Shown here one piece after another: positions 6,515 to 25,683 of a stretch of DNA of 26,426 nucleotides; the first letter of the stretch is position 1, and each line of letters begins with the position of its first letter. A program made the translations under genes and the position numbers. The notes beneath the pieces were generated by a model, which ran no database searches, was not told the DNA's origin, and saw only the letters and a program-made list of their open reading frames with translations. This DNA comes from a virus: positions 1 to 26,426 of IMG/VR virus record IMGVR_UViG_3300037189_007104; one strand, written 5' to 3'.

Positions 6515-8312
6515 AAGAAACTGTGCCGGGAAAACTTCCAAATGGAAGAGTTCCTAAATCCGAAAATCTTAAACTACAACCATTTAAAGTTTTTGAACAT
6601 TTATCTTCTTTCCAATTAACTGTGTCATTAAAAGGATTTTTACCGCTTGAATTTTCGCTTATTAAAACGAAAAACTTGGAAGGTGTTTCGTTATTTTTTT
6701 GTATGAAAGGTTCATTAAAATCATAATCTATATTTGCATCTATTTTTACAAAGTCTCCTCTGACATACAAAGTATTAGGATCATAATCGCCTTTATAATT
6801 GATTTTATCTAAACTATAACTATCGAATTTTGAAATTGTTGGATTTGCTGTAGCAAGGAATGTTTTATTATTTTCATCCGCCATCGGTATTCCTAAATTT
6901 CCTTCTTGAGCATAACTTCCAGTGAAATAGTCTGCACTACTCTTCGTTTCATAATAAGAAATAACAGAAGAATAAGGAATAGAATATTTGGTGCATAAAT
7001 AATTATTTACTGCATCAATTTGTTTTTTCGTTAAAACTCCTTGAAAAATTATAAGTTCATACAAAACAATTTCACTTTCTTCGTTACTACCAGATACATT
7101 TATACCGGGATAATTTGGATTAGCAGTAGGATTCGATCCGTTTGTTAAAGGCGAATTCAACTTAACCAAATCACCATTTTTTGTATAAATATTTTGGGTG
7201 GAATTTAGTTTATTAACCAAACCATAAACGATAGGATTATTTAATTGAGTAGATACTGCGCCGTACAAAACATACCAATCAGAAACAAAATAAGCTGTAT
7301 CACAATAGCTATTCCAATAACCTAATAGCCAATTATTATATTGAGCAGTCAAACCTCTGCGTCTAACGCCATTCGCATTAATAGCATTAACCATTTCGCT
7401 AACATAAAAAACAGTTATATCAGAAGACGCATAACTATAGTTCACAGCTACTGAATCGTTTGTATTAAAAAGTATTCCTTGTTTATTATTTAAACGCCCT
7501 GAATTTGTATATTTTTTAGGACTACCGGTTAAAGCTATTGTTTTAGATGTTCCAGATTGATCAGCCCAAGCTGTTAATTTAGGCCAAGTTGTTTTTACGT
7601 TATTCTTCGTTGTATCAATTGTACCCGTAAAAGTAACTCCAGTATCAGCCAATAAGTGAGTAGAAAGAGTTGGAAAAGTTCCAAACAATGTAGTATTCGA
7701 AGTTACAGATGACAATGTTGAAAATTGTATCTGCTTAACTTTCATTACTGGTCCTGAATATCCATAGAACTTTCCATAATTACAACCGCAACCTCTATAC
7801 TGCCATTGACATGTATTATTATAAACTTTTCTTGTAGGACAAGTTAAACCATCAATATCTAATATATTAGCTAATTCAAAATCTACTTTTTCTTTAGTTT
7901 CATTATTTTTCTTATGTATTATGTAAGTATCTAAAGAAATATAATCAGTAAAAAAATTTGTGCCTAAAGTGTTTTTATCAGTTCCACCGAAATTAGAATC
8001 ATCTAAATCTTTTGCTAGTATTTTTTTTCTATAAAAACGCTTTCCAAGAAAATCATTTCTGTCTTTAATGATATTAGAAATATAATTATTAACATTAGCA
8101 ATAGATAATGATGGGCGATTTTGTTTTCCTTCTGAATTGTATTCTAAATTGGATATTTCAGAAGGTATGTAAATATAAGTGCGACCTTGAAAAACTACAT
8201 CTTTAGTTAAGTTTTTTGAGCCGTGAAACAAAAAGTAACCTTCAAAATCACTCAACTTGATCTCAAAAAGATCAATAACTAAATTATTTTGTAAGGTAAA
8301 TATATTTGACAT
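6492..8312 (-). CDS. L: Minor tail protein L-like with LamG- and CBM-like insertion in the Fe-S domain
   Basis: Residues 1-185 follow lambda gpL closely: LFEIKLSDFEGYFLFHG, a QGRTYIYIPSEI strand, NRPSLSIAN, a FELANILDIDG segment, then C158 and the first cysteine cluster C168-QWQYRG-C175-G-C177-NYG. In lambda the second cysteine pair follows within a few tens of residues. Here it comes about 395 residues later as C572-SKTLNG-C579-SLRF, followed by the family ending LPFGSFPG. The insert contains a LamG/concanavalin-like domain (~235-445; WADQSG near the start and a closing helix at GVLTKKQIDAVNNYLCTKYS) and a CBM5/12-like segment (~505-569; YDPNTLYVRGDFV ... NPFNDTVNWKED). The role is tail-tip assembly below the tube; the insert probably projects from the tip and binds glycans (inference). 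Confidence 0.88.
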   Translation of the reverse strand: MSNIFTLQNNLVIDLFEIKLSDFEGYFLFHGSKNLTKDVVFQGRTYIYIPSEISNLEYNSEGKQNRPSLSIANVNNYISNIIKDRNDFLGKRFYRKKILAKDLDDSNFGGTDKNTLGTNFFTDYISLDTYIIHKKNNETKEKVDFELANILDIDGLTCPTRKVYNNTCQWQYRGCGCNYGKFYGYSGPVMKVKQIQFSTLSSVTSNTTLFGTFPTLSTHLLADTGVTFTGTIDTTKNNVKTTWPKLTAWADQSGTSKTIALTGSPKKYTNSGRLNNKQGILFNTNDSVAVNYSYASSDITVFYVSEMVNAINANGVRRRGLTAQYNNWLLGYWNSYCDTAYFVSDWYVLYGAVSTQLNNPIVYGLVNKLNSTQNIYTKNGDLVKLNSPLTNGSNPTANPNYPGINVSGSNEESEIVLYELIIFQGVLTKKQIDAVNNYLCTKYSIPYSSVISYYETKSSADYFTGSYAQEGNLGIPMADENNKTFLATANPTISKFDSYSLDKINYKGDYDPNTLYVRGDFVKIDANIDYDFNEPFIQKNNETPSKFFVLISENSSGKNPFNDTVNWKEDKCSKTLNGCSLRFSDLGTLPFGSFPGTVSYEYRLPG

Positions 8313-9857: not shown

Positions 9858-11285
9858 TTAGTTAGTTCCTTTTAAGTTTGGTGTTCTAAAATCTTTGTGT
9901 GTTAAATTATTTACTTGTGGACCATCAAGAGTAATGCTTACTTTATTTTTATCAGTTATCACAACAGACTGACCTCCACCGGGACCAGCATAAAACTTAC
10001 TATCTAAATCTTTATATATATAGTATTGTATTTTTTTAATAGCGCTTGGATTAGATGTATCTAAAACATTATCTAAATTAAAAATTGGACCACCAACTGT
10101 CGCACTTGTTGTTGGACTTGCACCATAGCCGCCTTTTCCAAATAAAGATACATTTTCAAATTCCAATTCTAATCTAAAAACATTATCAGAAGGATTAGCG
10201 TTAAATAAAATGGGCGCTTGAGTATTATAAACAAAATTAACAGCGCCTTTAGATATATCACTAGCAATAAAACTAGCTACAGTATTTTCCGTTTTAGGAT
10301 AAAATTTTATATTGACACCTGTATAATATCTAAAATCTACAGATCCTTCATTAGAGTTAATTAAAAAATTATAAATATCAAAATCAGTTTCAGAATCTGA
10401 TCTGTACGTCAAATATAAACCAGTTGGCAAAACCTTTAAATTATCTCCCGGCGCAGGATGCAAACCGCTATAAGTTATATCATCAATCACAAAATTTTTA
10501 TCAATAAAACCAGTAGCATAACTATATGCTCCAGTTCCTCCCGTAGCATTTACCGCTTGAACTCTTGCATAATAGTTTGTGCTAAAATTTAAATTAGTAA
10601 ATTTATTAGAATATTCATATCCAGACAGCCCATGATATTTTCCATAAATAGGCAAATCAGGATCGTCATTTGCAGATATTATCTTAGAAACTGAACTGAC
10701 AACACTTGCAAAAGAAACATCTGTTGCTAAATCAATATTATAACCAGTAAAATAATCTAAATTATTTACAGAAGAAAAATAACAATCCAAATTAACACCA
10801 TCATCATGATTATATCCTTTGATAGCATAAAATTTTCCAAATCTTTCTGGTGTTGAGCAACCAGTTATTCTTTGACCTGTTATGTATATATTGATATCAT
10901 CTCCAAGATCTCCAAAAGAAGATTCTGATTTAATATTTAAAGTCGCATATTCTAATCCAGTAGATCTACTTGCTAAATTTTTAAAAGTACTAAAAGGTTT
11001 ATTAACAACATAGAAAATCCCAGAATCACTAGTATTTACTATTTGCGAATAAGAACTAACATCTGTAGACACATTATCTAAATCCGTAGCAACAAAAATT
11101 GTATTATATATATCAGCATTCAAAGCCGTAGCAGTACTGACAGTACCAGCTTCAAATGTTGTATCAGACATACTTAAAGTATACTTAATAGGATAATTAC
11201 CACTATTAGTTAATACAATTCCTGTATAACCACCAAAACCTGTTGGCGTTGTATTTAATAAAGTTCTGTAAGTTACTGCGCTCAT
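9858..11285 (-). CDS. Minor tail protein with Ig-like and FN3-like domains
   Basis: The 475-aa protein starts with an ATG that overlaps the upstream gene's stop (ATGA), so translation is probably coupled. Residues ~1-140 are beta-rich and Ig-like (NSGNYPIKYTLSMSDTTF). Residues ~150-260 carry a fibronectin III pattern ending in FSTNYYARVQAVNATGGTGAYS. The C-terminal part (261-475) contains glycine-rich turns (LFGKGGYGA ... VGGPIFN ... YAGPGGGQ) that resemble glycine-rich regions of some phage tip proteins. It is probably exposed at the tail tip. No enzymatic motif was seen and no named family is claimed. Confidence 0.6.
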   Translation of the reverse strand: MSAVTYRTLLNTTPTGFGGYTGIVLTNSGNYPIKYTLSMSDTTFEAGTVSTATALNADIYNTIFVATDLDNVSTDVSSYSQIVNTSDSGIFYVVNKPFSTFKNLASRSTGLEYATLNIKSESSFGDLGDDINIYITGQRITGCSTPERFGKFYAIKGYNHDDGVNLDCYFSSVNNLDYFTGYNIDLATDVSFASVVSSVSKIISANDDPDLPIYGKYHGLSGYEYSNKFTNLNFSTNYYARVQAVNATGGTGAYSYATGFIDKNFVIDDITYSGLHPAPGDNLKVLPTGLYLTYRSDSETDFDIYNFLINSNEGSVDFRYYTGVNIKFYPKTENTVASFIASDISKGAVNFVYNTQAPILFNANPSDNVFRLELEFENVSLFGKGGYGASPTTSATVGGPIFNLDNVLDTSNPSAIKKIQYYIYKDLDSKFYAGPGGGQSVVITDKNKVSITLDGPQVNNLTHKDFRTPNLKGTN

Positions 11286-13144
11286 GAAGTATAAGTAATT
11301 ATTGTATTAAAAGCTGTTGAAGTTTTTAAAGGATTTTTAAATTCTATAAACTTGGCAGTGATTGTATGATTATTAGCAAAATCAAAATTATGATTCCACT
11401 CAGGACAATATACACTGATTGTTTTATTATAAGGCTGAGAAAGAGTATAATCAAAAATCTTAAATCCAGCTTTATCATCTAAAAACTTCAATAAAGCATA
11501 TGCTTCTTTATTACTTCTTTTTGAGAATTTTACTTCAAATTCCAACAAATTATAATTAATACCATCTTTTTCATATTCTTTAGTAGAGTTTTTAAAATCA
11601 TTTGTAAAAAGTCTTACTTTAGAATTAACGTTATAATCTAAATCAGGTTTAAAATAAAAACTTCTAGTAAAATAAGATGAAGCTCCAGTTGGGCTATTTT
11701 CAGGCGCTATATAAACTGGACCAGTAACAATTGGACCACTAGAAGAAGAGCTATTTACATTAGCTCCTGTATAAAAATAAAAACCTCTATTAACGAAAGC
11801 CGTCGAAGGATAATAAAAAACATCATTATAAGTTAAAGAATAAATATTTTTTTCGTTATAAGTTTTAGAATTATTTTCATCTAATTTTATGAACATGCCT
11901 TTATAATTAAGCGCACTTTCATACAAACCTTCTGCCGTAATTACTATTTTATTTATGTCTTTATAAATAGAATCGTGTTTTATGTCCAAGAAATATAATT
12001 CCTCATTAGAATCATAAGGAAAAAATAAACTTAAACCAACACCTTTAAAACCCTCATAAATACTTTTATTTGCGGCTTCTGGAGTGTTTTCAAAATAAGT
12101 TATCAAAGATTTTGTTTGCTTATCCGTTAAGCCATCATAATTCAATTCAAAATTCGCATTTAAAGTATTGATACCATTAACAACATTAGTTTTATAACCA
12201 TCACCGAATTGCAAAGGAGTTAACTTAGCTGAAAAATTAACAGAACATGGATATGTTAAATAAAACAAATCATTTATGTTTCTTGTCCAATAATTATTTC
12301 CTGTAAAAGTTGTTGGAGAATAAGCATCAGAAGATGGCACATCAGATTTTGCAAAATAAAGACCGGCTTTATTAGAATATTTTTCAAACAAATATTTTTC
12401 ATAATAGCTCAACTGAGTATTGTTTAAAACGCCAGTAAAGTTGGCGATTTCATGATATTTAATACCTAAATAAGATCCTTTATTTGTGTTAACATTAGAT
12501 CCTATTCTAAAAACATCTTCACTCCACTGACTGTTATAACTATTAACAGTTCCTATATTTATACCGTTATGTCTAACATTTAAAGTTGAAGTATCTTGAA
12601 CAATTGTAAAAATATTTAATTCATTATAAATTGGGGAAACGGCGCTGAATTTATTAGTATCAATAAATACTTTTGAAGAGTCTATTGTATTTGAACCAGA
12701 GACTTTTAAAACGCCATAGTCTTCCGTCGTTCCAAATCTAAATATTTCTTGAGCTTTTCCAACTACTTCGGAGTCTAATTGAACTGCCGCAAAGATTGTC
12801 TTTTTAGGAGAAGCGAATCCAACACCAGATAAAAACTGATCTACCCCTAACTTAAAATAACTTTGATTGAAATCTACAAATCCCCCTGAACCTGTTATAT
12901 ATCCACTTAAAGGAACTAAATTTTTCCAACCAGTGACCAAATAATTAGCATCTAAATAAAAATTTTCTAGTTGATCGTTATTGAACCAACTAGATAATCC
13001 TGAAACAGAAAATCCAGTATAACTTGGATAAACAGATATTCCAGTCACCAATTGATAATCGACAATATCATATTGAGAATACGAATTTGAACTATTGTAT
13101 TCTGAAATATTTTTAATATTTAAGCCTGAAATTATATCACTCAT
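11282..13144 (-). CDS. Minor tail protein with two gpM-like domains and a nested LamG-like domain
   Basis: The 620-aa protein is a mosaic. Residues 10-32 (EYNSSNSYSQYDIVDY) look like the first half of a CBM5/12-type module, and residues 262-290 (LYFAKSDV ... YWTRN) like its second half. Between them sits a LamG/concanavalin-like domain (~45-257), closing with the helix GVLNNTQLSYYEKYLFEKYS. Residues ~300-412 match the lambda gpM pattern (QFGDGYKTNVVNGINTLNANFEL ... LTDKQTKSLITYFEN). Residues ~495-610 look like a second, more divergent copy (DGINYNLLEFEVKFSKRSNKEAYALL). gpM joins the tape measure complex to gpL at the tail tip. The position upstream of L, after the TMP, agrees with that order. 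The domain boundaries are by eye. Confidence 0.65.
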   Translation of the reverse strand: MSDIISGLNIKNISEYNSSNSYSQYDIVDYQLVTGISVYPSYTGFSVSGLSSWFNNDQLENFYLDANYLVTGWKNLVPLSGYITGSGGFVDFNQSYFKLGVDQFLSGVGFASPKKTIFAAVQLDSEVVGKAQEIFRFGTTEDYGVLKVSGSNTIDSSKVFIDTNKFSAVSPIYNELNIFTIVQDTSTLNVRHNGINIGTVNSYNSQWSEDVFRIGSNVNTNKGSYLGIKYHEIANFTGVLNNTQLSYYEKYLFEKYSNKAGLYFAKSDVPSSDAYSPTTFTGNNYWTRNINDLFYLTYPCSVNFSAKLTPLQFGDGYKTNVVNGINTLNANFELNYDGLTDKQTKSLITYFENTPEAANKSIYEGFKGVGLSLFFPYDSNEELYFLDIKHDSIYKDINKIVITAEGLYESALNYKGMFIKLDENNSKTYNEKNIYSLTYNDVFYYPSTAFVNRGFYFYTGANVNSSSSSGPIVTGPVYIAPENSPTGASSYFTRSFYFKPDLDYNVNSKVRLFTNDFKNSTKEYEKDGINYNLLEFEVKFSKRSNKEAYALLKFLDDKAGFKIFDYTLSQPYNKTISVYCPEWNHNFDFANNHTITAKFIEFKNPLKTSTAFNTIITYTS

Positions 13145-13145
13145 A

Positions 13146-13943
13146 TTATACTAAAGTTTTGATATCATCGACTTGTTGCATTATGTTTGCAGAACTCATT
13201 AAATACTGGCCGTTACTAACATCATATTTTTGATTTGTTATTATTCCGCTAACCCCAAAACTATCCAACAAAGTTCCATAAGTATCTTTTAAATAAATTA
13301 ACGTACTTGCGTTTCTTCCTAAATAATTTATATTACTACCCAAATCATCCGAAGATAAACTTATCTCTACTTTTTTATTTAACTTCGCCACCCTAAAAGG
13401 AACAACATTATTAACTTTATAATATGCTGGTCTATCTGCACTTGCAGTATAACTTATACTGGTTACTGTTCCAAATCCCCCTCCCATGTTGTTATTTGTT
13501 GAATAAGATTTATAAGCGTTAGCAATATAATTTGGTACTTGTATACTATTCTTTAATATTTGAGAGTTAGGATTAAAATCAGAAACACTTACTGAACCAT
13601 ACCAATCAAATTCCGCAGACATCAAAATAGGCTTAAAAGGTTCGACACTAAAAGACAATGATTTTGCATAAACCTCTGGTATAGAAACTCCAGCAAAACT
13701 TGCCGCAATTGCTGAAGTATTAGAACCAGTTAAATTTAAGAAATCAGGTATTGCACCAGTCAAATAAAACTCACAACTTAAACCACCAACCAAAGCTCCC
13801 TGCGGAGCATAATTTAATAACGAGCCATCACTTAACAAAACTGGATCAAGCGAAGCTTGCATTGAAAGCGACACTTGATTTGCATAATAAAAAGTATTAT
13901 CTAATCTAAAATCAATATTCTGATAGCTTATGAATTTAGACAT
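13146..13943 (-). CDS. Tail-tube-like protein, paralogue of the 302-aa protein at 15712-16620
   Basis: The 265-aa beta-rich protein has a pattern shared with the 302-aa protein located two genes upstream: a SLSM strand near residue 26, then DPxL, an NLTG turn near residue 72, and the block SLSFSVEPFKPILMSAEFDWYG (95-116, cited in part: SLSFSVEP and SAEFDWYG), which aligns with residues 103-124 of the other. The ending (NQKYDVSNGQYLMSSANI) is typical of tube-type barrels that close with paired strands. It is separated by 3 nt from the gene before and 1 nt from the gene after. It may be a tube, tube-terminating or distal tail ring protein; which one cannot be told from sequence alone. Confidence 0.5.
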   Translation of the reverse strand: MSKFISYQNIDFRLDNTFYYANQVSLSMQASLDPVLLSDGSLLNYAPQGALVGGLSCEFYLTGAIPDFLNLTGSNTSAIAASFAGVSIPEVYAKSLSFSVEPFKPILMSAEFDWYGSVSVSDFNPNSQILKNSIQVPNYIANAYKSYSTNNNMGGGFGTVTSISYTASADRPAYYKVNNVVPFRVAKLNKKVEISLSSDDLGSNINYLGRNASTLIYLKDTYGTLLDSFGVSGIITNQKYDVSNGQYLMSSANIMQQVDDIKTLV

Positions 13944-13946
13944 TTT

Positions 13947-15710
13947 TTACTTTGTTGTGTATGAAATAGAAGATAAAACAGTAAAGTCACAATTAGTAGT
14001 AGCTCCAATGCTATTTACTAATCTATATTGCAATAACTGACCAGATGTAAATGCTGTTGTTCCATTAAATTGATTTTTATTTAATGTTGTTATCACATTT
14101 TGTCCTAGATCAGCAAAATTTAATGAAGCATATGCTATTATTCCGCTTACTCCATATCCAGCACTTGTGGGACTTATCGAAAAACCAGAAACGAAATTTG
14201 AAGGAGTTCCTACTTTATAACTTGGAGAAATTGCACTTATTTCAAATCTCAATGGATAATTTAAAGTAGCTAATGTTGCAACACCTACAGAAGAAAATAA
14301 TTGAACTTTTTCTACAGAACCTCCAAAAGGTGCAATAGTAAACGGAGCATTTAAAGAATTATGTCCGCTAGGATTAACATTAGAATTTGGTATACAAGGG
14401 CTAAAATAAGAACAATTTCCAGTCACTCTTGTTTCGTATGATTGAATAAATTTTCCTAAACAATAAGAAGAATTTGTAGTATAATTTCCTTGTATATCTA
14501 AATTACCGCTACGATCCAAAGCAGCTTTGATTGCAGCATCAGAAGCTGTACTTCCATCAACACGCCATACGAAGACATCATCGTAAGACGTTGCTTTATA
14601 TAATCCCACAGCCCATTTCAAAACGTTAGTAGAACCACCATCATATCTACCAAATGTATAAACAGAATGAAAAGGGCCAGAAGCTGGACCACTAGGATAA
14701 TTGTTTACTTGCAGAACTTCGTTAAAAGCGCTTGTTACTGTTTCATATTTAGCTATTCTAGTATCAGAAGAAGAGTAAACATGAACTTTATTATCTGGCG
14801 CGGTCGTTCCAACTCCTAATCGTTTAGTATCAAGTCTATAAGCTAAGTTAGCATTACTAGCACCATTTGTTGGACCTACAGTAAAAGTTGAAGAATTTAA
14901 ATTAAAATATCCAGTCGCTGAAGTATTAGTTATAGAAAATGAAGAATTAGCACTAGAACCATTCTTCATTCTAAACATCAAACTTGAACCAGAAATATCT
15001 AATGGATAAGCTGGAGTAATATTATTAATTCCAACGTAAGAGTTTGTTCCGTTTTCTACATATAAAACATTATCGCCCAAAACAACATCATCAGCAGTAT
15101 TTTTATTTATATAAAAAATGTCACCAGCCGTAGATGTTCTTATTTCGGCAGCGCCGGGATCAAAAACAAAACCAGATAATCCACTTTCAAACTTAATACT
15201 TCCACCAGAAACATAAAGCTTATCAGTTAAAGGCGAAGCTCCATTGAAGAGACCAACATTACCGCTCACATCAATATTCAATACTCCAGTAACTGTTGTT
15301 CCTCCATTTTGAGAGACTTGAATATAAAAATCTGTATCACTTGCTTTCTTTACTGTCTGCCACAAAACATTTGAATCTTTTAAACTAAAAGAAGCTTGTC
15401 TACCGGGAACAGAAGTCGTGACGCGAACTTGTGCGCTGCCATCTGTAGAAATATCACCGACATCTAATGCTACAGTTGGAGCATTATTATCAATACCCAC
15501 AAATCCATTGTCGCCAACAAAAACGCCACTAGGCGTAGTTCTTCCATAAATTTTTAAACCATTCGTTGTTCTGGCTGTTAATCCAGTAATTGATTTTTGC
15601 AACTCTCCTAAAGAAAACTGTTCAGTAGTTGATGGAGTAGCAACAGCAAAAACATGAGAATCAGTAATTGTTGCGCTTGTAATTGTTGGTAGGTCAGTAA
15701 ATGTTGCCAT
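13947..15710 (-). CDS. Fibre-like structural protein with VGI...P...LDV beta repeats
   Basis: The 587-aa protein carries at least three copies of a repeat seen in many phage fibres and trimeric beta-structured proteins: GFVGIDNNAPTVALDV (~69), SYVGINNITPAYPLDI (~222) and RLGVGTTAPDNKVHV (~296). The N-terminus (FTDLPTITSATITDSHVFAV) resembles fibre attachment segments. The C-terminal ~170 residues (from about 415) form a separate domain that is rich in hydrophobic strands and has several cysteines (NSSYCLGKF, TGNCSYFSPC). No S74-type autocleavage motif was recognised. It sits between two tube-like paralogues, which is unusual for a fibre and suggests decoration of the tail shaft or a side fibre. 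The specific function is unknown. Confidence 0.55.
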   Translation of the reverse strand: MATFTDLPTITSATITDSHVFAVATPSTTEQFSLGELQKSITGLTARTTNGLKIYGRTTPSGVFVGDNGFVGIDNNAPTVALDVGDISTDGSAQVRVTTSVPGRQASFSLKDSNVLWQTVKKASDTDFYIQVSQNGGTTVTGVLNIDVSGNVGLFNGASPLTDKLYVSGGSIKFESGLSGFVFDPGAAEIRTSTAGDIFYINKNTADDVVLGDNVLYVENGTNSYVGINNITPAYPLDISGSSLMFRMKNGSSANSSFSITNTSATGYFNLNSSTFTVGPTNGASNANLAYRLDTKRLGVGTTAPDNKVHVYSSSDTRIAKYETVTSAFNEVLQVNNYPSGPASGPFHSVYTFGRYDGGSTNVLKWAVGLYKATSYDDVFVWRVDGSTASDAAIKAALDRSGNLDIQGNYTTNSSYCLGKFIQSYETRVTGNCSYFSPCIPNSNVNPSGHNSLNAPFTIAPFGGSVEKVQLFSSVGVATLATLNYPLRFEISAISPSYKVGTPSNFVSGFSISPTSAGYGVSGIIAYASLNFADLGQNVITTLNKNQFNGTTAFTSGQLLQYRLVNSIGATTNCDFTVLSSISYTTK

Positions 15711-15711
15711 A

Positions 15712-16620
15712 TTAATTTAAATATGTTTTATATGATATCTTTACACTTAATACGTCGTCTGCACTTGAAGTCATTTGTTCGCTTAATATTATAGCGTTTG
15801 CTGCATTAAAATTAAATATTGGTACGTTACTTTCATTTTTTAAATAAGAATACAAAGGAATCAAAGAAGCAGTTGTTAATGGAACTCCCGCAGCGGTTGT
15901 TAACGGTTGATCGACAAGAACCGATCCACTAATTTTAATACTAAAATTAGTTAAATTAGTAGAACTAAATATACTATAAGCCCTTTGACTTTCATAATCA
16001 TCGACATCCAAACTAAAAGATCCATCAACAACAACAGGATAAATATTATGAACTTCTACAGGTATTTCAGAAAGGCTTTGGTTTAATGCATAAATAGGAC
16101 GATTTGGACAATCAACATTTAAAGTAAAATCTTTTACTCTATTTGTAGAAGATTGATTACAGCCAATGATTATGTTTTTAACTTGAGGAACGAACACCGC
16201 ACCGTCTTTGAAAGCTCCTGAAGGATCTAAATAGCCACCGATATCTCCACCATAAACATCAAAAGTTGACTGTATTTTTGGTACATCGCCAACCGAACAG
16301 TTAATACTATAAGAAGATAAATATCCAGTACCGAAAGCAAAAGATTTATTATTATATTTTAACCCCGCACTGACAGCATCAGCTATATAATCATATCCAT
16401 TACCAGTTAAGCTTAGTACTGGATCTTGATTAACTAAATATCTATCTACTGTTAATTGAGCTTTTGGAACTTCAGCAACAACTTGCTTAAGAAATCCTTT
16501 ACCAATAACATTAATTGGCTCCATCGATAAATTATAAGAACCATCAACTGAGATTACGCCAGACAAAGCCGTCTGATTTAAAAAGAACGTATTCTCGTAA
16601 TTTGTAATTGCGTTTTTCAT
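15712..16620 (-). CDS. Tail-tube-like protein
   Basis: The 302-aa beta-rich protein starts 1 nt after the TMP stop. It has no low-complexity sequence and the even strand pattern of a tail tube or tube-like ring protein. The block YSINCSVGDVPKIQSTFDVYG (residues 104-124, cited in part: INCSVGDVPKIQSTF) aligns with the 265-aa protein at 13146-13943, as does the SLTG turn near residue 70, so the two are probably paralogues. The lambda tube gene V lies upstream of G/T rather than after the tape measure gene. This protein could be the main tube protein moved in order, or a distal tube/ring protein. Which of the two paralogues is abundant in virions would decide. Confidence 0.5.
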   Translation of the reverse strand: MKNAITNYENTFFLNQTALSGVISVDGSYNLSMEPINVIGKGFLKQVVAEVPKAQLTVDRYLVNQDPVLSLTGNGYDYIADAVSAGLKYNNKSFAFGTGYLSSYSINCSVGDVPKIQSTFDVYGGDIGGYLDPSGAFKDGAVFVPQVKNIIIGCNQSSTNRVKDFTLNVDCPNRPIYALNQSLSEIPVEVHNIYPVVVDGSFSLDVDDYESQRAYSIFSSTNLTNFSIKISGSVLVDQPLTTAAGVPLTTASLIPLYSYLKNESNVPIFNFNAANAIILSEQMTSSADDVLSVKISYKTYLN

Positions 16621-16621
16621 G

Positions 16622-19600
16622 TTATGTTCTTAATGGATTCTTATACAATTCGCCGCCGTATCTTTTTTCGTTTGACATCGATTTTACAACGATATTATTT
16701 ATTTGTTTAGCCATCTTCTTGCTAAACATGATATCAGTTGATTCATAACTGCTATTATTAGCGCCATAAACTGAACGACCATTACGATCAACGTTGATTG
16801 ATATATTAGTAGCGTTATTGTTTGTATTATTAGTATTAGAAGAGCTAGTGCTATTAGAACCGCCACTTTGGAATGCACCAGCGTTCATCATGTTCATGGT
16901 TCCGAGTCCGTATTTCTTAACTGCTGAATTATTCATTACATATTCTCCACCAGTCAATAAAGCAGGTATTGTGTCGCTTAGTCTTGAACCATGAGGAACA
17001 AAACCGCCAGAATTATAACCAATATAACCTCCGGTTTGATGTCTAGTTGAACCTAAAATACCAGTTGTGCTATTGTATGCTGGTTGTAATAAGTTTTTAA
17101 AGAAACCTGCTTTACCTATTTGAGGAGCAACAAGACCTTGTTTACCTAAGACTGATACTAATTGTTGATTTCCAGTAAATTTAGAAAAACTAAAAGCTTG
17201 TTTTGCCACTCCATTCGAAATAGTCATTCCTTCCGCTCCTAAATTACTAACATTAGTTAAAAGATTACCATTTAGCATTATACTATTAGCATTTTTTTGA
17301 ATAAATTTAGAAGTTTCTGCTGCTCCTGCTTTAGAAGCCTCTTCTAATCCTTTTTGTATTTCTGGAGTAACTGCTTTCATCGTTCCATTTTCAATTGCAG
17401 GTATAGCAGCAGTACCTCCTTCAGCGGCAGCAGCAGCATTTGCCATTCCACCAGCCAAAGCTAAAGATCCAACTGCACCAACTATAGAACTAACTAATTG
17501 TGCGGTTCTTTGTTTTTTAGCAAAATCTTTTTGTACTTTTTCTTGATACTGTTGTATAGATTTTTCTCTTAACTTAGTAAAGTATTCATCATTAGCGTAA
17601 GCATAAGCGCTAAAATTAGAAGCATCTATTGCTCCAGCATTAACACCATTATAAAGCTGATTACCACTGTAATCTGTTGCGCCGAGTTCAGGAGCTAGTG
17701 AGAAGCCGCCGCCTTCTTGAAAACCGCGACCAAATCTTGGAGCAGAATCAAAATTAAATTTATCAAGAGCGGCAGGACCACCAAAAGCTTTTACAGCATT
17801 ACGATTTAATACATATTCGCCGTCTTCCAACATTGCAGGATTTTTATCACCAGTGCGACCGCCACTGATGTACATACCGTTTTGAGCGTATATCATGCCT
17901 CCTGCCTGACGACCAATAGCTCCACCACCAACTGATCCGCCAGTCTGACCAAACATATTAGTGAAAGCGCTGCCAACTACTCTACCAATTGCGGCTCTCA
18001 TAACTTCTTGCATGATCATCTGACCGAAGTTAATAGCCATGTCAGAGAATGCATCTCCAATAGATTTTGTTCCCTTCGCGACTTCCATCAAAGCATTAGT
18101 CATACCATCTGCAAACTGAGTAGGTATTTGTTTTCCTAATCTATTTCCAAGAGTTTCAGCGCCTTTATATAATTCATCAATGCCTTCTTTCATTCCATAA
18201 GTGAAAGAAGTACTTCTTCTGGCTCTTTCTATTTCGTCTTCATTAATACCTTTAACTAAATCAGCTTCTTTCTTTTTACCACTTAGAATATCTTGTTCAA
18301 GAGCTTTTAGTTTCTCTAATGTTTTGATTCGTTTTGTGTCTTGATCAAGATTTTTAAAACTAATTTTTTCAAGATTTCCAATTTCGCTTCTTAAAGTTTC
18401 TAAATTAGTCACGTTACGATTGACATTCACTCCCGCCGCTGCAAATTTAAAACCTTGTGAAGACATCGAATCGCCTTTTAATTTAGCATCAGCGGCTTGA
18501 ATTAAATAATTTTGGCGCTGCATTAAATAAATATCATTCAAATCACTTTGAGAAGACATAGATTTAGTTCTTTCTTCTTCAGCAATTTTTTTATCAGAAA
18601 TTTCGGTTCTAAATCTTGATTTTTCTACCGCAGATCCAACAATACCTCTTCCTAAATACCTAGCTTCATCACCCATTTGTCTTTCAAGAGTGTTTATTTC
18701 TAAGTCTAGATTAGATTTTCTCATTATTTCTAGACGCTGTCTTTCTGTAACTAGATCAGTTTCAGATTTTAAAAGACTATACTGCGTCTTACTGACTTCT
18801 TGTTTTATGGTCTGAAGTCTCGCATCTTGCTCTAAAGTTTTTTGTTGTTTTTCGTTATCTTGTCTTACATCTCTTATAGTTTGTCTTCTGCTTTCTAATG
18901 AACCCTGAACCTGAGAAAGAGCTTCTGGATATTTTGTTCTTAAAGTTTCATTGCTTGTCAAATCGACCATTTCAGAAAAATTACCTTTTTTAGCTTTTTC
19001 AAAAGCTGGTGCAACTGTTGATTCAATAAATTCTTTATCACTTATCAAACCATTTATTTTATCGTAATTTTCTTTAACGTAATTAGTGTTTATTTCTTTT
19101 AATTTATCATTTAATTCAGCCTCAAGCTGACTGCTCATAAATTTAAATTTAGATGATATAGCATCTAGCGGGTTCACAATTGAACTCAACAAATCTTGTT
19201 GAAAATTAAAAACACCTTCTTTTAATTTTCTTTCAGATTCATTTGTTTTAAGAAGTCGATTAGTTTCTGCAACATATCGCATATTTTGCAACATTAAATC
19301 TCTTTTATATTCATAAGCAGAAAATTCTTTTTGAGCTAATTCAACATTTTTTTTCAATCTTTCAGCCACTGATTTCTCTAAACCTGTTAAATTTTTTAAA
19401 TTTTCTATTCCTTGAGGACTAAATAATGCATCCCCTAAAGCTTCATAAGCTTTAGAAAATTCATCTGTTCCTTCTTTTAGATTAGATTTTTTTAAAATAT
19501 CTTCAATGCTTGACTTATTTTCTTTCAAAAACTGTTCTTTGTATTTTGCTTCAACAAATGTATTTTGATTATCTCTTACGTTAACATCTCCTTCATTTGT

Positions 19601-22600
19601 TTTTATTTCTCCTTGAGCTTTCAAATAAGCTCTAGCTCCAGCACTAGTTATACCTCTTAACGATTCGCTTTTTATTCCAGCATTGTATAGAGTTTGAACA
19701 AATTCAGAAGTTTTACTTGCACTCAATATACCTTGCTCTTCTGCTGTTCTATTTGAGAATAGTGAATTATTTTTTCCAAATTCTCCTATTTTAGCCGCTG
19801 CTTGAGTTTTATTTTGTTCTTGTGCATATTTAGATAAAGCTTCTTGCATCTTTTCCGCGCTAGTTCCAACTTTATTAAAAATTTCTTGCAATTTAACATC
19901 TTTAATTTCTGAAAAAGATTTAGCAAGTTGCAAACTAGCCGATTTTATTTTATCTTGGCTTGCACCAGAAGATGCCAAATCAGATAAGTTTTTTTGAGCG
20001 CCTATATAAGAATTTGCACTAGTTATGCTTTCTTGTATTTTATTTGCGTTTTCTTGATTTATTTTAGCCAATTCTTCAGTAGTTAAAGAAGCTGCATCAA
20101 CGGCTTTAACCCATCCATATAAAGCTCCAACACCAGCACCAATTGCAGCACCCCAACCGGGAAGAATCATATTTCCATAAAAAGCTCCTGTACCAACAGC
20201 CGTAGCTCCAGCGCTTATCGCTGACTGACCCATTCTTTCACCAGCGGTCATTTCAGTACGTTGTTTATTTCCAAAGGCGAATTGTTCAACAAATCCAGCG
20301 GCCATAGGTAAATAACCAGCAATATCTGCTAATTTGCTACCAAAATTTTTAATATCGAATGATGAAGTTGTCGTAGTTGTTGCAGCAGTAGTTTGAGCTT
20401 GTGCATTTCTTCTCAAAGCAACATTTAGTTCTCTATTAGCATCTTGAACAATTTTTGTAGAACCAGTTGTTATTTCCAATTGACGAGCATAGTTTTTAAC
20501 ATCTTGAGAAAGAAGCTGTGTATCATTTGCGCTTAAATTTGTAGCATTTCTCAACTTCGCTAAAGCCTTTTCAAGTTCAGCATATTGACCTCTTTGCATT
20601 CCTGTCAAAGCTCCAAGACCTTGACCACCGAAAAGTCTAATAGGATCTAATCCCATAGGAGCAAAATTAGGAATAAATCCACCATGAACGAGACCAGCGG
20701 CTCTTTGATTCTTCACTGAATCGCTCATCGCTTTACTCAATCCACCATGATCAGCAATAGCTGAACTAAATGTTGGCTGACTTGCGTTGCGAATATGAGG
20801 AAAAGGATTAGTATCAAAAATCGCTTTGTTACCACTTAGATTTTGTTCAAGACCCATTACAGATTGTTTATAAGCAAAATTAGGTATGAAACCATTAGAG
20901 TATCCCCAATTAGGATTACTAACTAAAACATCATTCCAACTATCAAGTTCTTTTCTATATTTATCTGCAAGCTGTTGTCTTACTCCTTTAAATTTAGCCA
21001 TCAATTCGGCTGGCGTAGTTGGATCGCCGCCTTTCATTTCAAAAAATGTCTTTGAAGCGTGATCTATAGCATCAACTCTTGAACTTGGTCCGCCGGGAAT
21101 ACCTGCGGAAATAGCATCCAAAATACCGGGATATTTTCCTTTTAATTGACTAAGTGCGAAAGATTCATAAGCAGCGCCATAATCAATAGTAGATCCACCA
21201 AATTCATCATAAGTTTTCCAAGGAATATCTATATTTCTATAAGTAATACCCGCAAGCTTATCCGCTTTATCTTGTGCGGTTCTTGTTTTTCTTTCTGAAA
21301 TTTTTTCTGAAGTTGGCTTCCATCCCATCGCTCTTGCGTCAGCTTCGCTCATTCTTCCCAAACGAACAGCGGCGGCAATTTGAGACATAGACATGTCTGC
21401 AAAATTAGGAATAAAACCATCAGCATATTTTCTATCATAAACATTTTTTGATCCTTGATATCTTAAACTGTCAAGCAAAGTTTTATCTTTGAAAACTGGT
21501 TCTCCTATATTTACTGTCCTTTTGTATTTATCTTGAATGTCTTCAGATTTATATAATATTCCTAACTTATCGCCCTGCATCTCAAATTGTAGTGTTTTTG
21601 GATGAGTAGCATATCTCCAAAGACCTTTGGCTTCATTTTTATTATCGAGACCTTCAAAAAATCTTTCTTTTGCAAGATTGATTAAATCTTGATCTTTTGT
21701 GTATCTTAAATCAGGAACTGCATAACCTTTATCAATCAAATCCCTTGCAAGCGCTTTATCAGCGAATGTACCTCTATAATAAGCAGCCTTTCCTTTAGTT
21801 ATTGAATCATTTAATTTTGATGCATTTTCATAACCATAATTTTTTAAAAGCTGTATAGCTTCATTATTAAACATTTGATTTGATTCTACAGCATCCGCTT
21901 CAGCCAAACGATAATCTTTTGATATAGGTTCAACTGGATAGCCGCTGACAGTATCACCATCTTTTATTTTGATTTTATCAGTAACAAACGCTTTATTTAT
22001 TTCAGCAAAATTAGGTATAAACCCTCCAAATCTATAAGGATCAACACCAGTTCTGGAAATTGAATTTTGTCTGTGTGCTTGACCTGCCATTGATCCAATA
22101 GGAGGATTAATAAAAGGTTGAGCGAAGCCGGGAATGTAACGAACACTTTCGGCACTGTTCATTACTCCACCAACTGGAGAATTAATTACTGCGCCGGGAA
22201 CATAACCACCGGCTCTAGCACCTCTCATTTCGGCATTTCTTGCGGAAGCTGGTATATATCCTCCAGCGCGAGTAACCTGCAAACCACTTTGACCTTTAGC
22301 TGTTACTCCTTGACCAACTAATGTAGAAGCCAATTGTTTAGCTAACGCAGCTTGTTGTTGATATTCTGCTGTTTGCTGTCTAGCTAATTGAAGCAATAAT
22401 TGAGATTGAGCAGCTTGATTTCCAGCAGTTCCTAAAAGAGCTTGAGCAATAGGCGTTTGCTGAGACATGATCTGCAAAATGGCGGCTTCAACATTTTGTC
22501 TTTTTTGGGTTTCAGTTGTGATGCCAGCAATTTGAGGCAAAGCCTGAGTAATATAAGTAAAAGAATTTTGTATTAACTTAAATAAAGTATAAAACGCTGC

Positions 22601-23902
22601 AACTGCGCCGGGACCAGCAAGAGTATTTCTTAAACCTTTCAACAAACCATTTGCTAAATCAGAACCAAAAGTATCGCCTTGAAGTAATTCATTTATTCCC
22701 TCAACAATAGATTTAACTGTTTGAGTAGCATTCTTTGCAAGAGGTTCAAAAGTAACTTTGCCAATATTAAAAGCTAATTGTTCAGCAGCAGTTCCTGTTT
22801 GAGAAAGTAGTGCGGATAAAGTTTGATTTAATTGAGCAGCCGCCGCAGTTGCTTCGTTTGTTGCAGAAGCTCCTTTTTTCAAAGCTCCTTCATAAGTGCT
22901 TTGAGAATTATTTAAATCATTAACTACTGCTTTTAAAATGTTAATTTGATTGACACCAGCGACTTGTTCTGAAAGCTGTGCGCGTTGAGCGTCTCCTAAA
23001 GTTCTATAAACAGAAGCGAAATTCTTTAATATTGTAACTGCTGGCAATATATTTCCTTGGACATCTCTTACGGCTACATTAAACATTTCCAACTGATCCA
23101 AAGTGTCGGAACGTTGCAAACGAGTAAAAATTGTTTTTAAAGCGTTACCGATTACAGCGCCACCTCTAGCAGTATTTTGTTGAGCGGCTGTAACTAACGC
23201 ATTCAACTGATCGATATCAACACCAGCTTCTTGAGCGGCTTGACCTGTACGAGAAAGAGCTTGAGCGAGATCTCCAGCACCAACAGCGTATTCTTGTTCT
23301 ACAGCAACTAGCTTATTTAATACCTGACTAGTTGTGATGCCTGTTTTTGCAAAACCGTTAACAGTAGAAGTCAAAGTGTCTACAGCATCAGCAGTACTAA
23401 TACCTGCAATTCTAGCTAAACTTAGAGCATCTTTTGTTCTTTCTAGAGTATCAACGGCTTTCAAACCTTGACGAGAGAATTCAAGAGCAGCTTTCGAAGC
23501 GTCACCAAAAGAACTTGCAGTAGCTTTACTTACATCAAATAAGTCACCACTAAATTTTTGTAGTTGGCTAGTTGTTAATCCGAATACGCGATTAATATCA
23601 GTAAGATTCTTTTCAACTTCAATTGTGACATCTGCTAAAGCTTTGAAACCTCTGACGACACCTCCAAGAACAGCAGTTGAAGCGCCGAATGCAATAACAC
23701 GCGCATTAGAAGCTGCCAACGCAGCTTCGAAATCTTTTACGTCACCAGTGATTCTTCCTAATGGCTGGCTAAAACCTCTCGCATTAATCTGTAAATTAAC
23801 TTGGTTCTGAGCGGCAAAACGCTGGTTGTACGCTTGGACACCAGCTTGAATAGAACCAATTAGTGCTGCTTGATTCGCTGCGACATTAATTTGAACTGCC
23901 AT
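16622..23902 (-). CDS. Tape measure protein with embedded nuclease-like modules
   Basis: This is the largest gene (2426 aa). Residues ~60-400 match the phage tape-measure N-terminal domain (helical, Ala/Gln/Leu-rich; ISTADAVDTLTSTVNGF, ARGGAVIGNALKTIFTRLQ). A hydrophobic stretch follows at ~435-460. Residues ~547-1081 contain GGYIP/GGYVP/YIPGFA elements and four exact GFIPNFA motifs, which separate a staphylococcal-nuclease-like module (643-764), a PD-(D/E)XK-like module (907-998) and a short third segment. Next come a hydrophobic Gly/Ala region (~1215-1262) and a long coiled-coil region (~1270-1900). The C-terminal quarter has two copies of the tape-measure DGEYVLNRNAVKAFG-type motif (~2023 and ~2315) and a hydrophobic segment (~2134-2165). 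The protein sets tail length and is normally ejected before the DNA. If fully stretched as helix (about 0.15 nm per residue) it would span ~360 nm; the globular modules would shorten this. Confidence 0.93.
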   Translation of the reverse strand: MAVQINVAANQAALIGSIQAGVQAYNQRFAAQNQVNLQINARGFSQPLGRITGDVKDFEAALAASNARVIAFGASTAVLGGVVRGFKALADVTIEVEKNLTDINRVFGLTTSQLQKFSGDLFDVSKATASSFGDASKAALEFSRQGLKAVDTLERTKDALSLARIAGISTADAVDTLTSTVNGFAKTGITTSQVLNKLVAVEQEYAVGAGDLAQALSRTGQAAQEAGVDIDQLNALVTAAQQNTARGGAVIGNALKTIFTRLQRSDTLDQLEMFNVAVRDVQGNILPAVTILKNFASVYRTLGDAQRAQLSEQVAGVNQINILKAVVNDLNNSQSTYEGALKKGASATNEATAAAAQLNQTLSALLSQTGTAAEQLAFNIGKVTFEPLAKNATQTVKSIVEGINELLQGDTFGSDLANGLLKGLRNTLAGPGAVAAFYTLFKLIQNSFTYITQALPQIAGITTETQKRQNVEAAILQIMSQQTPIAQALLGTAGNQAAQSQLLLQLARQQTAEYQQQAALAKQLASTLVGQGVTAKGQSGLQVTRAGGYIPASARNAEMRGARAGGYVPGAVINSPVGGVMNSAESVRYIPGFAQPFINPPIGSMAGQAHRQNSISRTGVDPYRFGGFIPNFAEINKAFVTDKIKIKDGDTVSGYPVEPISKDYRLAEADAVESNQMFNNEAIQLLKNYGYENASKLNDSITKGKAAYYRGTFADKALARDLIDKGYAVPDLRYTKDQDLINLAKERFFEGLDNKNEAKGLWRYATHPKTLQFEMQGDKLGILYKSEDIQDKYKRTVNIGEPVFKDKTLLDSLRYQGSKNVYDRKYADGFIPNFADMSMSQIAAAVRLGRMSEADARAMGWKPTSEKISERKTRTAQDKADKLAGITYRNIDIPWKTYDEFGGSTIDYGAAYESFALSQLKGKYPGILDAISAGIPGGPSSRVDAIDHASKTFFEMKGGDPTTPAELMAKFKGVRQQLADKYRKELDSWNDVLVSNPNWGYSNGFIPNFAYKQSVMGLEQNLSGNKAIFDTNPFPHIRNASQPTFSSAIADHGGLSKAMSDSVKNQRAAGLVHGGFIPNFAPMGLDPIRLFGGQGLGALTGMQRGQYAELEKALAKLRNATNLSANDTQLLSQDVKNYARQLEITTGSTKIVQDANRELNVALRRNAQAQTTAATTTTTSSFDIKNFGSKLADIAGYLPMAAGFVEQFAFGNKQRTEMTAGERMGQSAISAGATAVGTGAFYGNMILPGWGAAIGAGVGALYGWVKAVDAASLTTEELAKINQENANKIQESITSANSYIGAQKNLSDLASSGASQDKIKSASLQLAKSFSEIKDVKLQEIFNKVGTSAEKMQEALSKYAQEQNKTQAAAKIGEFGKNNSLFSNRTAEEQGILSASKTSEFVQTLYNAGIKSESLRGITSAGARAYLKAQGEIKTNEGDVNVRDNQNTFVEAKYKEQFLKENKSSIEDILKKSNLKEGTDEFSKAYEALGDALFSPQGIENLKNLTGLEKSVAERLKKNVELAQKEFSAYEYKRDLMLQNMRYVAETNRLLKTNESERKLKEGVFNFQQDLLSSIVNPLDAISSKFKFMSSQLEAELNDKLKEINTNYVKENYDKINGLISDKEFIESTVAPAFEKAKKGNFSEMVDLTSNETLRTKYPEALSQVQGSLESRRQTIRDVRQDNEKQQKTLEQDARLQTIKQEVSKTQYSLLKSETDLVTERQRLEIMRKSNLDLEINTLERQMGDEARYLGRGIVGSAVEKSRFRTEISDKKIAEEERTKSMSSQSDLNDIYLMQRQNYLIQAADAKLKGDSMSSQGFKFAAAGVNVNRNVTNLETLRSEIGNLEKISFKNLDQDTKRIKTLEKLKALEQDILSGKKKEADLVKGINEDEIERARRSTSFTYGMKEGIDELYKGAETLGNRLGKQIPTQFADGMTNALMEVAKGTKSIGDAFSDMAINFGQMIMQEVMRAAIGRVVGSAFTNMFGQTGGSVGGGAIGRQAGGMIYAQNGMYISGGRTGDKNPAMLEDGEYVLNRNAVKAFGGPAALDKFNFDSAPRFGRGFQEGGGFSLAPELGATDYSGNQLYNGVNAGAIDASNFSAYAYANDEYFTKLREKSIQQYQEKVQKDFAKKQRTAQLVSSIVGAVGSLALAGGMANAAAAAEGGTAAIPAIENGTMKAVTPEIQKGLEEASKAGAAETSKFIQKNANSIMLNGNLLTNVSNLGAEGMTISNGVAKQAFSFSKFTGNQQLVSVLGKQGLVAPQIGKAGFFKNLLQPAYNSTTGILGSTRHQTGGYIGYNSGGFVPHGSRLSDTIPALLTGGEYVMNNSAVKKYGLGTMNMMNAGAFQSGGSNSTSSSNTNNTNNNATNISINVDRNGRSVYGANNSSYESTDIMFSKKMAKQINNIVVKSMSNEKRYGGELYKNPLRT
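20909..21184 (-). other. PD-(D/E)XK nuclease-like module inside the tape measure protein
   Basis: TMP residues ~907-998 show the order expected of a PD-(D/E)XK nuclease. A helix has a conserved-type glutamate (E913 in DYGAAYESFALSQL). A strand RVDAID (D944, or D947) leads through a turn to FFEMKGG, with E955-x-K957. A helix with K970/K972 and Gln residues (KFKGVRQQLADKYRK) follows. The module lies between the GFIPNFA motifs at 829 and 1004. The ~70 residues before it (836-906) are charged and mostly helical. It could cut DNA, but the family is diverse and structural confirmation is needed; the call rests on motif order and spacing. Confidence 0.6.
21611..21976 (-). other. Staphylococcal nuclease (TNase)-like module inside the tape measure protein
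   Basis: TMP residues ~643-764 match the staphylococcal nuclease fold pattern. IKIKDGDTV supplies the IDGDTV motif (D648 and D650, equivalent to D19 and D21). YRLAEADAVES follows with R665, D670 and E673 at the same spacing as R35, D40 and E43 of the S. aureus enzyme; only T41 is replaced, by A671. R710 in AYYRG is a candidate for R87. LARDLIDKGYAV matches the helix before the GLA/GYA turn, and ERFFEGLDNKNEAKGLW matches the C-terminal helix that ends in a conserved Trp. The module is flanked by the GFIPNFA copies at 627 and 829. Retained catalytic residues suggest an active calcium-dependent nuclease (inference). Confidence 0.72.
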
Positions 23903-23930: not shown

Positions 23931-24926
23931 TTATCCAAATAATTTCATCATATCTTCCATAGACAGAGACCCACCTTTCTTTTTGGCCTCTTCAGCCAAA
24001 GACAGTGTTTTTTGCCCCGGTTTGGTAATATTTAGGTATTCTAGATCTTCTTTTGTTGCGCCAACTATGGATTCTGCTGAATTTTCCTTATCAAAATTCT
24101 TTTCTTTCATTCTCTTGGCATTATCATTAGCATTTACATAATCAATAATCTTGTCTGGATCTGCCTTAATTTCAGGAGGCATATTTTCATTCTGCTGAAA
24201 TACATTCTTAAAAAATCGAGAATAAACAAGTAACTTTAACTGATTATAACTTAACTCACAGATTGGACGGCCATAAAACTCAATAGGATTTTCAGCAAAC
24301 GGCATGAATAAATTAAAAAAATCTTGTAAAACTATACGTTGAATACTTTCATCGTTTATTTGTTTATAAACGCGATTATACTCTTTTATGATAGCGAATA
24401 ACTGTTCTGAATCAATATCATCAAATTCATTAATACTAAAAGCTGGTTCTTGTAATTTTTTATCTTTATAAAGGCATTTTATAATGTAATAATCATTAAC
24501 TCTTTCTTCGGCATAAGATTCTGCCGTTCTAGAAAAGAACATTGCTCGCACATTTTTCAAATCACTTAATTTCTTTTGAGCTTCTTCCAAATCTTTATTT
24601 ACTCTAAGTATTTCTGATTTTAAATATAAAGCTTTCTTTTGCTTTACTAAATTATCAATAAAATCTTCTTGTTGAGATATTTCGCGTTCTTTCTTATTTG
24701 ACCATTCATCTTCTTCGATAAGACGCTCCAAAGTTTCTTTATGTGTTGGCACACCCTTTAACTTGGCTTGTTCAAAATACTTATCATAGATTGTGTCGAT
24801 ATCGACTTGATCTTCGAAAGACATGTGTTTCAAATAAAAAAGATTCTCCAAGATTTTAACCTCAGAGAATCCATTTTTTACGTCCCGAAAAATCTTTTTG
24901 TAATTACTCTGTTGGGATTGTTCCAT
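23931..24926 (-). CDS. Tail assembly chaperone-like protein upstream of the tape measure gene
   Basis: This 331-aa, highly charged, mostly helical protein lies directly before the TMP gene, in the position of lambda T. The start chosen is the ATG at 24926 (MEQSQQSNYKKIF), preceded 6 nt upstream by GGGAG. An ATG at 24959 or a TTG at 24965 would extend it by 11 or 13 residues. A coiled-coil-like region covers ~70-140. The C-terminus (GATKEDLEYLNI ... KKGGSLSMEDMMKLFG) ends in a short amphipathic helix that could bind the TMP. The frame overlaps the end of the upstream gene in a different phase. Whether it is made alone or also as a frameshift fusion is open. No enzymatic motif was seen. Confidence 0.55.
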   Translation of the reverse strand: MEQSQQSNYKKIFRDVKNGFSEVKILENLFYLKHMSFEDQVDIDTIYDKYFEQAKLKGVPTHKETLERLIEEDEWSNKKEREISQQEDFIDNLVKQKKALYLKSEILRVNKDLEEAQKKLSDLKNVRAMFFSRTAESYAEERVNDYYIIKCLYKDKKLQEPAFSINEFDDIDSEQLFAIIKEYNRVYKQINDESIQRIVLQDFFNLFMPFAENPIEFYGRPICELSYNQLKLLVYSRFFKNVFQQNENMPPEIKADPDKIIDYVNANDNAKRMKEKNFDKENSAESIVGATKEDLEYLNITKPGQKTLSLAEEAKKKGGSLSMEDMMKLFG

Positions 24927-25683
24927 CGATTTCTCCCACGATTCTATCGAATTCAGCATTATCAATATTACTAGTAAAGAACCAATAACTAATGATACTG
25001 GCTAGTTTACTGTAACACTTTTCATAGATTTCATTTCGACTTTCTTCGCATTCGAACATTGCGTTCTCCTTGATTTCAAAAGTTTTACCGGGAAAAAGTG
25101 GTTCAAATTCAATACTCTTCTTTGAGCTATCCTTAAAGAATGATAGATGTAGAACGTACCACAAAATCGCCCTGTTCTGAGCCTTGATATCAGCAGTGTG
25201 ATTAAACAATGTGATGTAGCTCGTTTCCTTTTCAATTAGCGTCTTGCGGCGTTGTAGAATTTGAGAAGTCAAAGTTTCAATCTTCTTCTTGTCATCTTCG
25301 TCTCGCTCGGACTCTGGCTTTAAATTATAAATAGTAAGCTTGGCCTGAATCTCTTTAATTTCTTCAGCAGAGCCAACCATTGTCTTAGCATCAGCCTCAC
25401 TGATAAGACCGCCAGTATCGTTATACTTATTTAGCAACATCGCTTTTGTCAAAATACCATTTCGAATACACTTACTCATTTCAATGCTGAACTCCATGTC
25501 GGCTTCTTGCATCTGTTTTCGAGTGGGTTGATTAATGAGGATTTCTACTGGAACCTCCTTCTTGACAACCTCCTTATAAGTGCGCGTCACTTCTTCGCCA
25601 CTTTCATTCTTAACTACCTCGGTCCTTTCTTCTTCGATTTGAGCGATTTTGTTGATCGTGAACTTGTATAAAACTTTAGCCAT
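24904..25683 (-). CDS. Tail assembly chaperone-like protein (lambda G position)
   Basis: The 259-aa protein is the first gene of the leftward tail block. The N-terminus (~1-55) is beta-like and very rich in Glu, Lys and Val. The middle (~55-100) is helical and ~105-165 is a charged coiled-coil-like stretch with PESERDEDDKKK. The C-terminal domain (~165-259) is helical with aromatic residues (AILWYVLHLSFF, SIISYWFFTSN). The position immediately before a second chaperone-like gene and the TMP mirrors lambda G/T, whose products coat the tape measure protein during tail assembly. Codon use is richer in G/C-ending codons than in most downstream genes. No Shine-Dalgarno sequence precedes the ATG. 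The functional call rests mainly on synteny. Confidence 0.55.
   Translation of the reverse strand: MAKVLYKFTINKIAQIEEERTEVVKNESGEEVTRTYKEVVKKEVPVEILINQPTRKQMQEADMEFSIEMSKCIRNGILTKAMLLNKYNDTGGLISEADAKTMVGSAEEIKEIQAKLTIYNLKPESERDEDDKKKIETLTSQILQRRKTLIEKETSYITLFNHTADIKAQNRAILWYVLHLSFFKDSSKKSIEFEPLFPGKTFEIKENAMFECEESRNEIYEKCYSKLASIISYWFFTSNIDNAEFDRIVGEIDGTIPTE

Follow-up and report, generated by a model that had tools for sequence, protein, structure and literature searches.

Polymorphic toxins such as Rhs, CDI, and MuF combine a conserved carrier with a variable enzymatic module and a short conserved junction sequence; the toxin is single and C-terminal and is usually followed by an immunity gene. 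A conserved carrier, variable enzymatic modules, and a short conserved junction, the heptapeptide GFIPNFA, also characterize the viral tail tape measure proteins (TMPs) described here. In contrast to the toxins, however, their modules are internal, number up to six per TMP, and have the motif on both sides. The single C-terminal variable toxin of those systems was not found in these TMPs, and the open reading frames (ORFs) examined beside the TMP either matched a tail family or had no match, with no recognized immunity gene among them.

Among TMPs themselves, that of mycobacteriophage TM4 has a built-in peptidoglycan-hydrolase motif (Piuri and Hatfull 2006, PMC1796659, as cited in PMC13277306). 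As far as these TMPs are described in the citing account, the resemblance lies in an enzymatic domain embedded in the TMP and acting at infection, which is reported there and proposed here, whereas the proteins described below differ by several modules in tandem, nuclease-like where identified, by a motif at each boundary, and by active exchange. The Sle1-type, tape-measure-related effectors of contractile injection systems (Nagakubo et al. 2026, PMC13277306), compared here by their description, share a TMP-related carrier and interchangeable functional domains; Sle1 possesses one C-terminal functional domain and belongs to a phage-tail-like particle, whereas the present modules are multiple, internal, and found in phages. 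Enzyme domains within TMPs are already known, as are TMP-related effectors whose domains can be exchanged (PMC13277306). Domain-level shuffling is likewise a feature of mosaic phage proteins, and TMPs were flagged as mosaic by sequence, but genuine recent mosaicism of TMPs was suspected and could not be confirmed (Smug et al. 2023, PMC10684548); in the cases described here, it can be seen at codon resolution and is linked to a specific peptide. The literature searched contained no description of a row of internal TMP modules that are punctuated by a motif and actively exchanged, and a search for GFIPNFA retrieved no paper mentioning the motif.

Tape measure protein and motif copies of the window

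The window, i.e., the whole stretch of DNA that was analyzed, is a 26,426-base record of an uncultivated virus from IMG/VR. Its 2,426-aa ORF is identified as a tail tape measure protein by several matches. Residues 123 to 316 match the Pfam family PhageMin_Tail (93.6 bits; cut-off, 33.2), PHROG tape-measure families match as well (the best being PHROG 4211, with an E value of 1.3e-44), and the tail gene order is lambda-like, with M-, L-, K-, I-, and J-like tail genes following downstream in the order phrog_14, 18, 30, 32, and 31, respectively. Upstream of the TMP (window 23931 to 25683, minus strand), two ORFs (259 and 344 aa) share 62 nt, read in different frames (offset +1 or -2), and the second ORF also possesses its own ATG starts. 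Frameshifting at this place in the gene order usually yields the tail-assembly chaperones G/GT; no obvious slippery site of the X XXY YYZ type was seen in the 62-nt overlap. The features of the TMP are listed in Table 1.

Table 1. Features of the tape measure protein gene in the window
Feature	Position	Strand	Basis
Tail tape measure protein (TMP), 2,426 aa	16622..23902	-	Pfam PhageMin_Tail, PHROG families, gene order
Conserved N-flank, aa 1-626, ending in GGYIP/GGYVP/NSAE unit	22025..23902	-	Alignment of 27 TMPs
GFIPNFA copy 1, aa 627-633	22004..22024	-	Exact sequence match
Module 1, 195 aa, staphylococcal-nuclease-like, family c8	21419..22003	-	Pfam and PDB profile matches of the family, invariant residues
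GFIPNFA copy 2, aa 829-835	21398..21418	-	Exact match; homology to L002 resumes here
Module 2, 168 aa, PD-(D/E)XK-like nuclease, family c9	20894..21397	-	Invariant residues, dN/dS
GFIPNFA copy 3, aa 1004-1010	20873..20893	-	Exact match; homology to L002 ends here
Closing unit, 64 aa, family c1	20681..20872	-	Family of 19 members, which usually directly precede the C-flank
GFIPNFA copy 4, aa 1075-1081	20660..20680	-	Exact sequence match
TMP C-flank, aa 1082-2426	16622..20659	-	Sequence

A preliminary description of this DNA had reported four exact GFIPNFA copies, written with different codons and separating segments of about 195, 168, and 64 residues. The copies were located at the positions reported (starting at residues 627, 829, 1004, and 1075), the segment lengths proved to be exact, and the four copies are encoded by four different codon strings. 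From the composition of the TMP, about 3e-6 exact copies would be expected by chance, and the back-translated pattern had 4 matches in the window versus 0 in 100 dinucleotide shuffles. The looser copies also reported, i.e., GGYIP (residue 548), GGYVP (566), and YIPGFA (589), are present and belong to a conserved unit of approximately 80 aa ahead of the first exact GFIPNFA in related TMPs. The N-flank shows 33 to 78% identity to the window among the 27 aligned TMPs, and in the C-flank clear conservation with two relatives, L002 and L003, is found again from approximately residue 1650 to 1720 onward. The C-flank includes common TMP-type units of the form GGFVPxGxxxxDxxPALLxxGEYVMN, and GFIPNFA may be a specialized offshoot of the GG[FY]xP start of this unit. 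Such units lie at window positions 16997 to 17008 and 17891 to 17902.

Distribution of the motif among viral tape measure proteins

IMG/VR was scanned for every codon spelling of GFIPNFA, and the motif was found in at least 120 viral contig stretches. Among the matches listed, 183 of 189 were in frame within ORFs, nearly all of them long, and an HMM of the N-domain of this TMP matched 77 of the 122 motif-bearing ORFs; the remaining ORFs were nearly all fragments cut by the stored stretch, together with about ten short chance ORFs. On this basis, nearly all in-frame matches appear to lie in TMPs. The consensus over 329 copies, collected with a pattern that required P and let other residues vary at most positions, was [AS]-x-G-[FY]-[IV]-P-N-[FY]-[AS], with P in 100%, G in 99%, and N in 97% of the copies. 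D, E, I, L, and V are scarce among the residues ahead of the motif.

In the 39 TMPs for which both flanks were available, only the N-flank was near-constant, with the first motif at approximately residue 535 to 575 or 620 to 660; it is followed by 0 to 6 long modules, often by a closing unit of 60 to 85 aa, and then by a C-flank of 728 to 2,273 aa. As the preliminary description had anticipated, the motif is kept in related TMPs, and what its copies enclose differs greatly among them, with 0 to 6 modules per TMP; the opposite pattern, uniformly conserved intervening segments with a motif that is not conserved, did not occur. Some modules are closed by motif variants with a changed last residue, specifically GFIPNFY (L102 and L138), GFIPNFN (L003 and L140), and GFVPNFV (L006), so that the true module boundaries outnumber the counts obtained with the strict pattern. 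In L128 (orf 9860-16537), two motif copies are 84 aa apart with no long module between them, and this TMP is a candidate for the "empty" state of the cassette block.

In genome contigs, motif-bearing TMPs occurred only on MAG-binned contigs, from several phyla. A tblastn search of INPHARED with the TMP, the N-domain, the module block, and the units gave no match for the modules or units, and the N-domain matched at only approximately 25 to 30%, in phages of mostly Gram-positive hosts; consequently, neither a cultured model phage nor a close relative was found among the cultivated phages of that collection.

Module boundaries in related tape measure proteins

The proposal that GFIPNFA copies delimit swappable modules found support at both the protein and the DNA level in comparisons of 111 nonredundant relatives. 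At the protein level (identity of ≥50%), 66% of 1,129 internal homology ends lay within 5 aa of a motif, compared with 7% for random positions, and at the DNA level (TMP identity of ≥88%), 113 of 127 homology ends (89%) lay in the motif or at most 9 nt away, compared with 9% expected; since the breakpoint pairs share members, these figures count comparisons rather than independent events. Between the window and L002, protein homology extends over residues 4 to 633, then 827 to 1010 (83%), and then from 1002 onward, i.e., from motif to motif. The N-domains of L002 and L003 are 99.5% identical, and their first modules are different. At the left junction of this pair, nucleotide identity is 93 to 100% through the final motif codon and falls to chance with the codon that follows. 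The far junction is the mirror image, with chance-level identity ahead of the motif and 90 to 100% behind it. Relative to L137 (N-domain, 98%), L138 shows the clean gain of a 176-aa module plus motif, and L010 and L031 have a module that is 95% alike and N-domains that are 66% alike. As read from the sequences, these comparisons show that TMPs have acquired, lost, and exchanged modules at breakpoints that coincide with the motif.

Properties of the modules

Searches of 99 modules against Pfam, PHROGs, NCBIfam, and PADLOC yielded few and mostly weak matches, the PADLOC matches not being counted as evidence. Most module families carry no identification by these searches, and dozens of them appear to be unannotated families. 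The preliminary description had judged two of the segments to look like enzymes, and the two long segments of the window did prove to be enzyme-like, module 1 as an SNase homologue and module 2 as PD-(D/E)XK-like.

By itself, module 1 gave no Pfam SNase match; it is assigned via its family, c8. L102, one of the family members, scores 38.4 bits against PF00565 (cut-off, 21), two other members match under the cut-off, and the family profile matches S. aureus thermonuclease in the PDB with an E value of 1.7e-9. The invariant residues D25, R40, D45, E48, and R85 (A3 numbering) correspond to D21, R35, D40, E43, and R87 of SNase; for the first four of these catalytic residues, the correspondence is backed by aligning the profile with thermonuclease, and the R87 equivalence was assigned by eye. 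Together, profile matches and invariant residues show module 1 to be a staphylococcal-nuclease homologue at the sequence level, with its predicted catalytic residues conserved. A scan with the family detected seven further loci, all in TMPs between motif copies. The dN/dS ratio of module 1 relative to a related sequence was 0.58, higher than that of module 2 or the N-flank.

In family c9, E86, D117, and E128-x-K130 (alignment numbering) are invariant in five members, across sequences 36 to 85% identical to module 2. This E-D-ExK signature shows module 2 to be a putative PD-(D/E)XK-like nuclease that has kept the active-site residues; the best Pfam lead was Tox-REase-9, with an E value of only 0.19. 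The dN/dS ratio of module 2 was 0.19 to 0.21, compared with 0.18 for the N-flank, indicating that module 2, like the N-flank, is under purifying selection. The AlphaFold prediction for window residues 545 to 1100, based on 16 sequences, had a mean pLDDT of 41 and thus gives no placement of the window motifs.

Profile comparison unites c2, c3, c6, c18, and several singletons in the largest module group. The few invariant residues of c3 include E, D, and K, arranged as E-D-(E/D)xK. The model of a c3 module (pLDDT of 78) displays a folded core, and both motif ends have pLDDT values below 50 and lie outside this core, as expected of linkers if the model is correct. A motif copy inside one folded domain, which would be at variance with a linker, was accordingly not seen in this well-modeled module. 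A fold search with the c3 model gave no Foldseek match below an E value of 0.04 and a VIA Z of at most 3.1, and comparison of the c3 profile with PDB sequences gave nothing. As the fold has no clear match, none is claimed, and the nuclease nature of c3 is a lead from the residue pattern only. Pfam further identified a GNAT acetyltransferase module above the cut-off and a cytidyltransferase-associated domain; P-loop hits were weak and denote possible P-loop domains, and HAD-like modules were recognized by eye only. Hydropathy was also scanned for a membrane segment common to the TMPs behind the cassette block, with no consistent result.

Proposed mechanism and alternative explanations

The TMP resides in the tail lumen, in phage 80alpha with its N terminus near the head and its C terminus at the tip, and its ejection together with the DNA has been proposed (PMC11661146); the lambda TMP was found beside inner-membrane proteins during injection (PMC13190303). 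Given this location and ejection, enzymes embedded in a TMP would be present at DNA entry. A modular, cargo-carrying TMP with exchangeable modules between GFIPNFA copies is the best explanation of our observations, and we consider it probable. As parts of the TMP, the modules would be carried in the tail lumen and would reach the host when the DNA is ejected; the nuclease-type enzymes might then attack nucleic acid of the host or of competitors or contribute to disarming defense, and the quick exchange of modules may reflect an arms race. GFIPNFA would be a protein-level junction, i.e., a hydrophobic linker, short and exposed, that is not part of the folded modules, could make any module compatible with any neighbor, and would be tolerated, or needed, by the tail machinery. 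Its probable mode of action is docking, with the tail lumen, assembly chaperones, or an adjacent unit as the partner. Recombinants breaking elsewhere would, according to this proposal, be lost, so that breakpoints are visible only at the motif. A more far-reaching version, in which a widespread uncultivated lineage possesses a delivery platform of tandem, rapidly exchanged nucleases and other enzymes, loaded into the tail lumen, with GFIPNFA as a universal docking or release signal and with modules carried and delivered independently, is conceivable but rather doubtful.

Other roles of the motif were weighed against the junction. A binding site for tail-assembly chaperones resembling lambda G/GT, which would keep the long insertions coated during assembly, suits the aromatic heptapeptide repeats along the TMP and the two ORFs directly upstream, which fit G and T in place and size. 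The copies are confined to the cassette block, however, instead of being spread over the C-flank, which is most of the ruler, and the 259-aa ORF matches no chaperone family; we regard this role as unlikely. Still less likely is a proteolytic processing signal at which a phage or host protease frees the modules, in the virion or after ejection. Proteolytic trimming is known for lambda gpH, and each module boundary offers a conserved, repeated hydrophobic sequence that is apparently unstructured. Against this role, cleavage prior to ejection would separate the N-flank from the remainder of the ruler, and copies also flank small units of 64 to 75 aa and occur in L128 without a long module in between.

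Maintenance of the motif as a DNA recombination site, through short homology or as the target of a site-specific recombinase, with the peptide being incidental, would agree with breakpoints exactly at the motif and with the codon sharing of copies within one TMP, which is slightly above expectation (0.63 versus 0.56). Motif codon use is near background, however, except for a preference for CCT, the window spells its four copies in four ways, and at the right-hand junction of L002 and L003 the two motifs have only one of seven codons in common but six of seven residues. Since its codon use is ordinary, the motif appears to be kept as protein, with selection acting on the peptide and not on a DNA recombination site; site-specific recombination is disfavored on the same grounds, and a DNA-level role as a whole is very improbable. 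Finally, the modules could be ordinary fast-evolving structural domains, with rate variation or assembly error mimicking swaps, a false mosaicism of TMPs of which Smug et al. 2023 (PMC10684548) warn. This reading has almost no credibility here, being already contradicted by the breakpoints seen in DNA comparisons: identity of 93 to 100% falls to chance and later returns, each time over a single codon, the same module families occur in different TMP backgrounds (e.g., 95% versus 66% for L010/L031), and many independent contigs agree.

With a TMP carrying exchangeable cargo as the preferred explanation, these phages seem to keep a changeable enzyme toolkit inside the tail. Delivery of the modules, if it occurs, would make tail tape measures multi-enzyme injection devices and would explain phage nucleases entering ahead of or with the DNA. 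GFIPNFA could serve as a search tag for phage-borne enzymes, by which dozens of unannotated module families can be excised, and it marks a natural junction for accepting cargo in a phage tail.

Additional observations in the tail gene region

The L-like minor tail protein (window 6492 to 8312, minus strand) matches phrog_18 in two stretches, as if a large domain were inserted. The last ORF (window 2 to 2341, minus strand) terminates, at the window edge, with a long SGTSGTSGTSG repeat of collagen-like low complexity.
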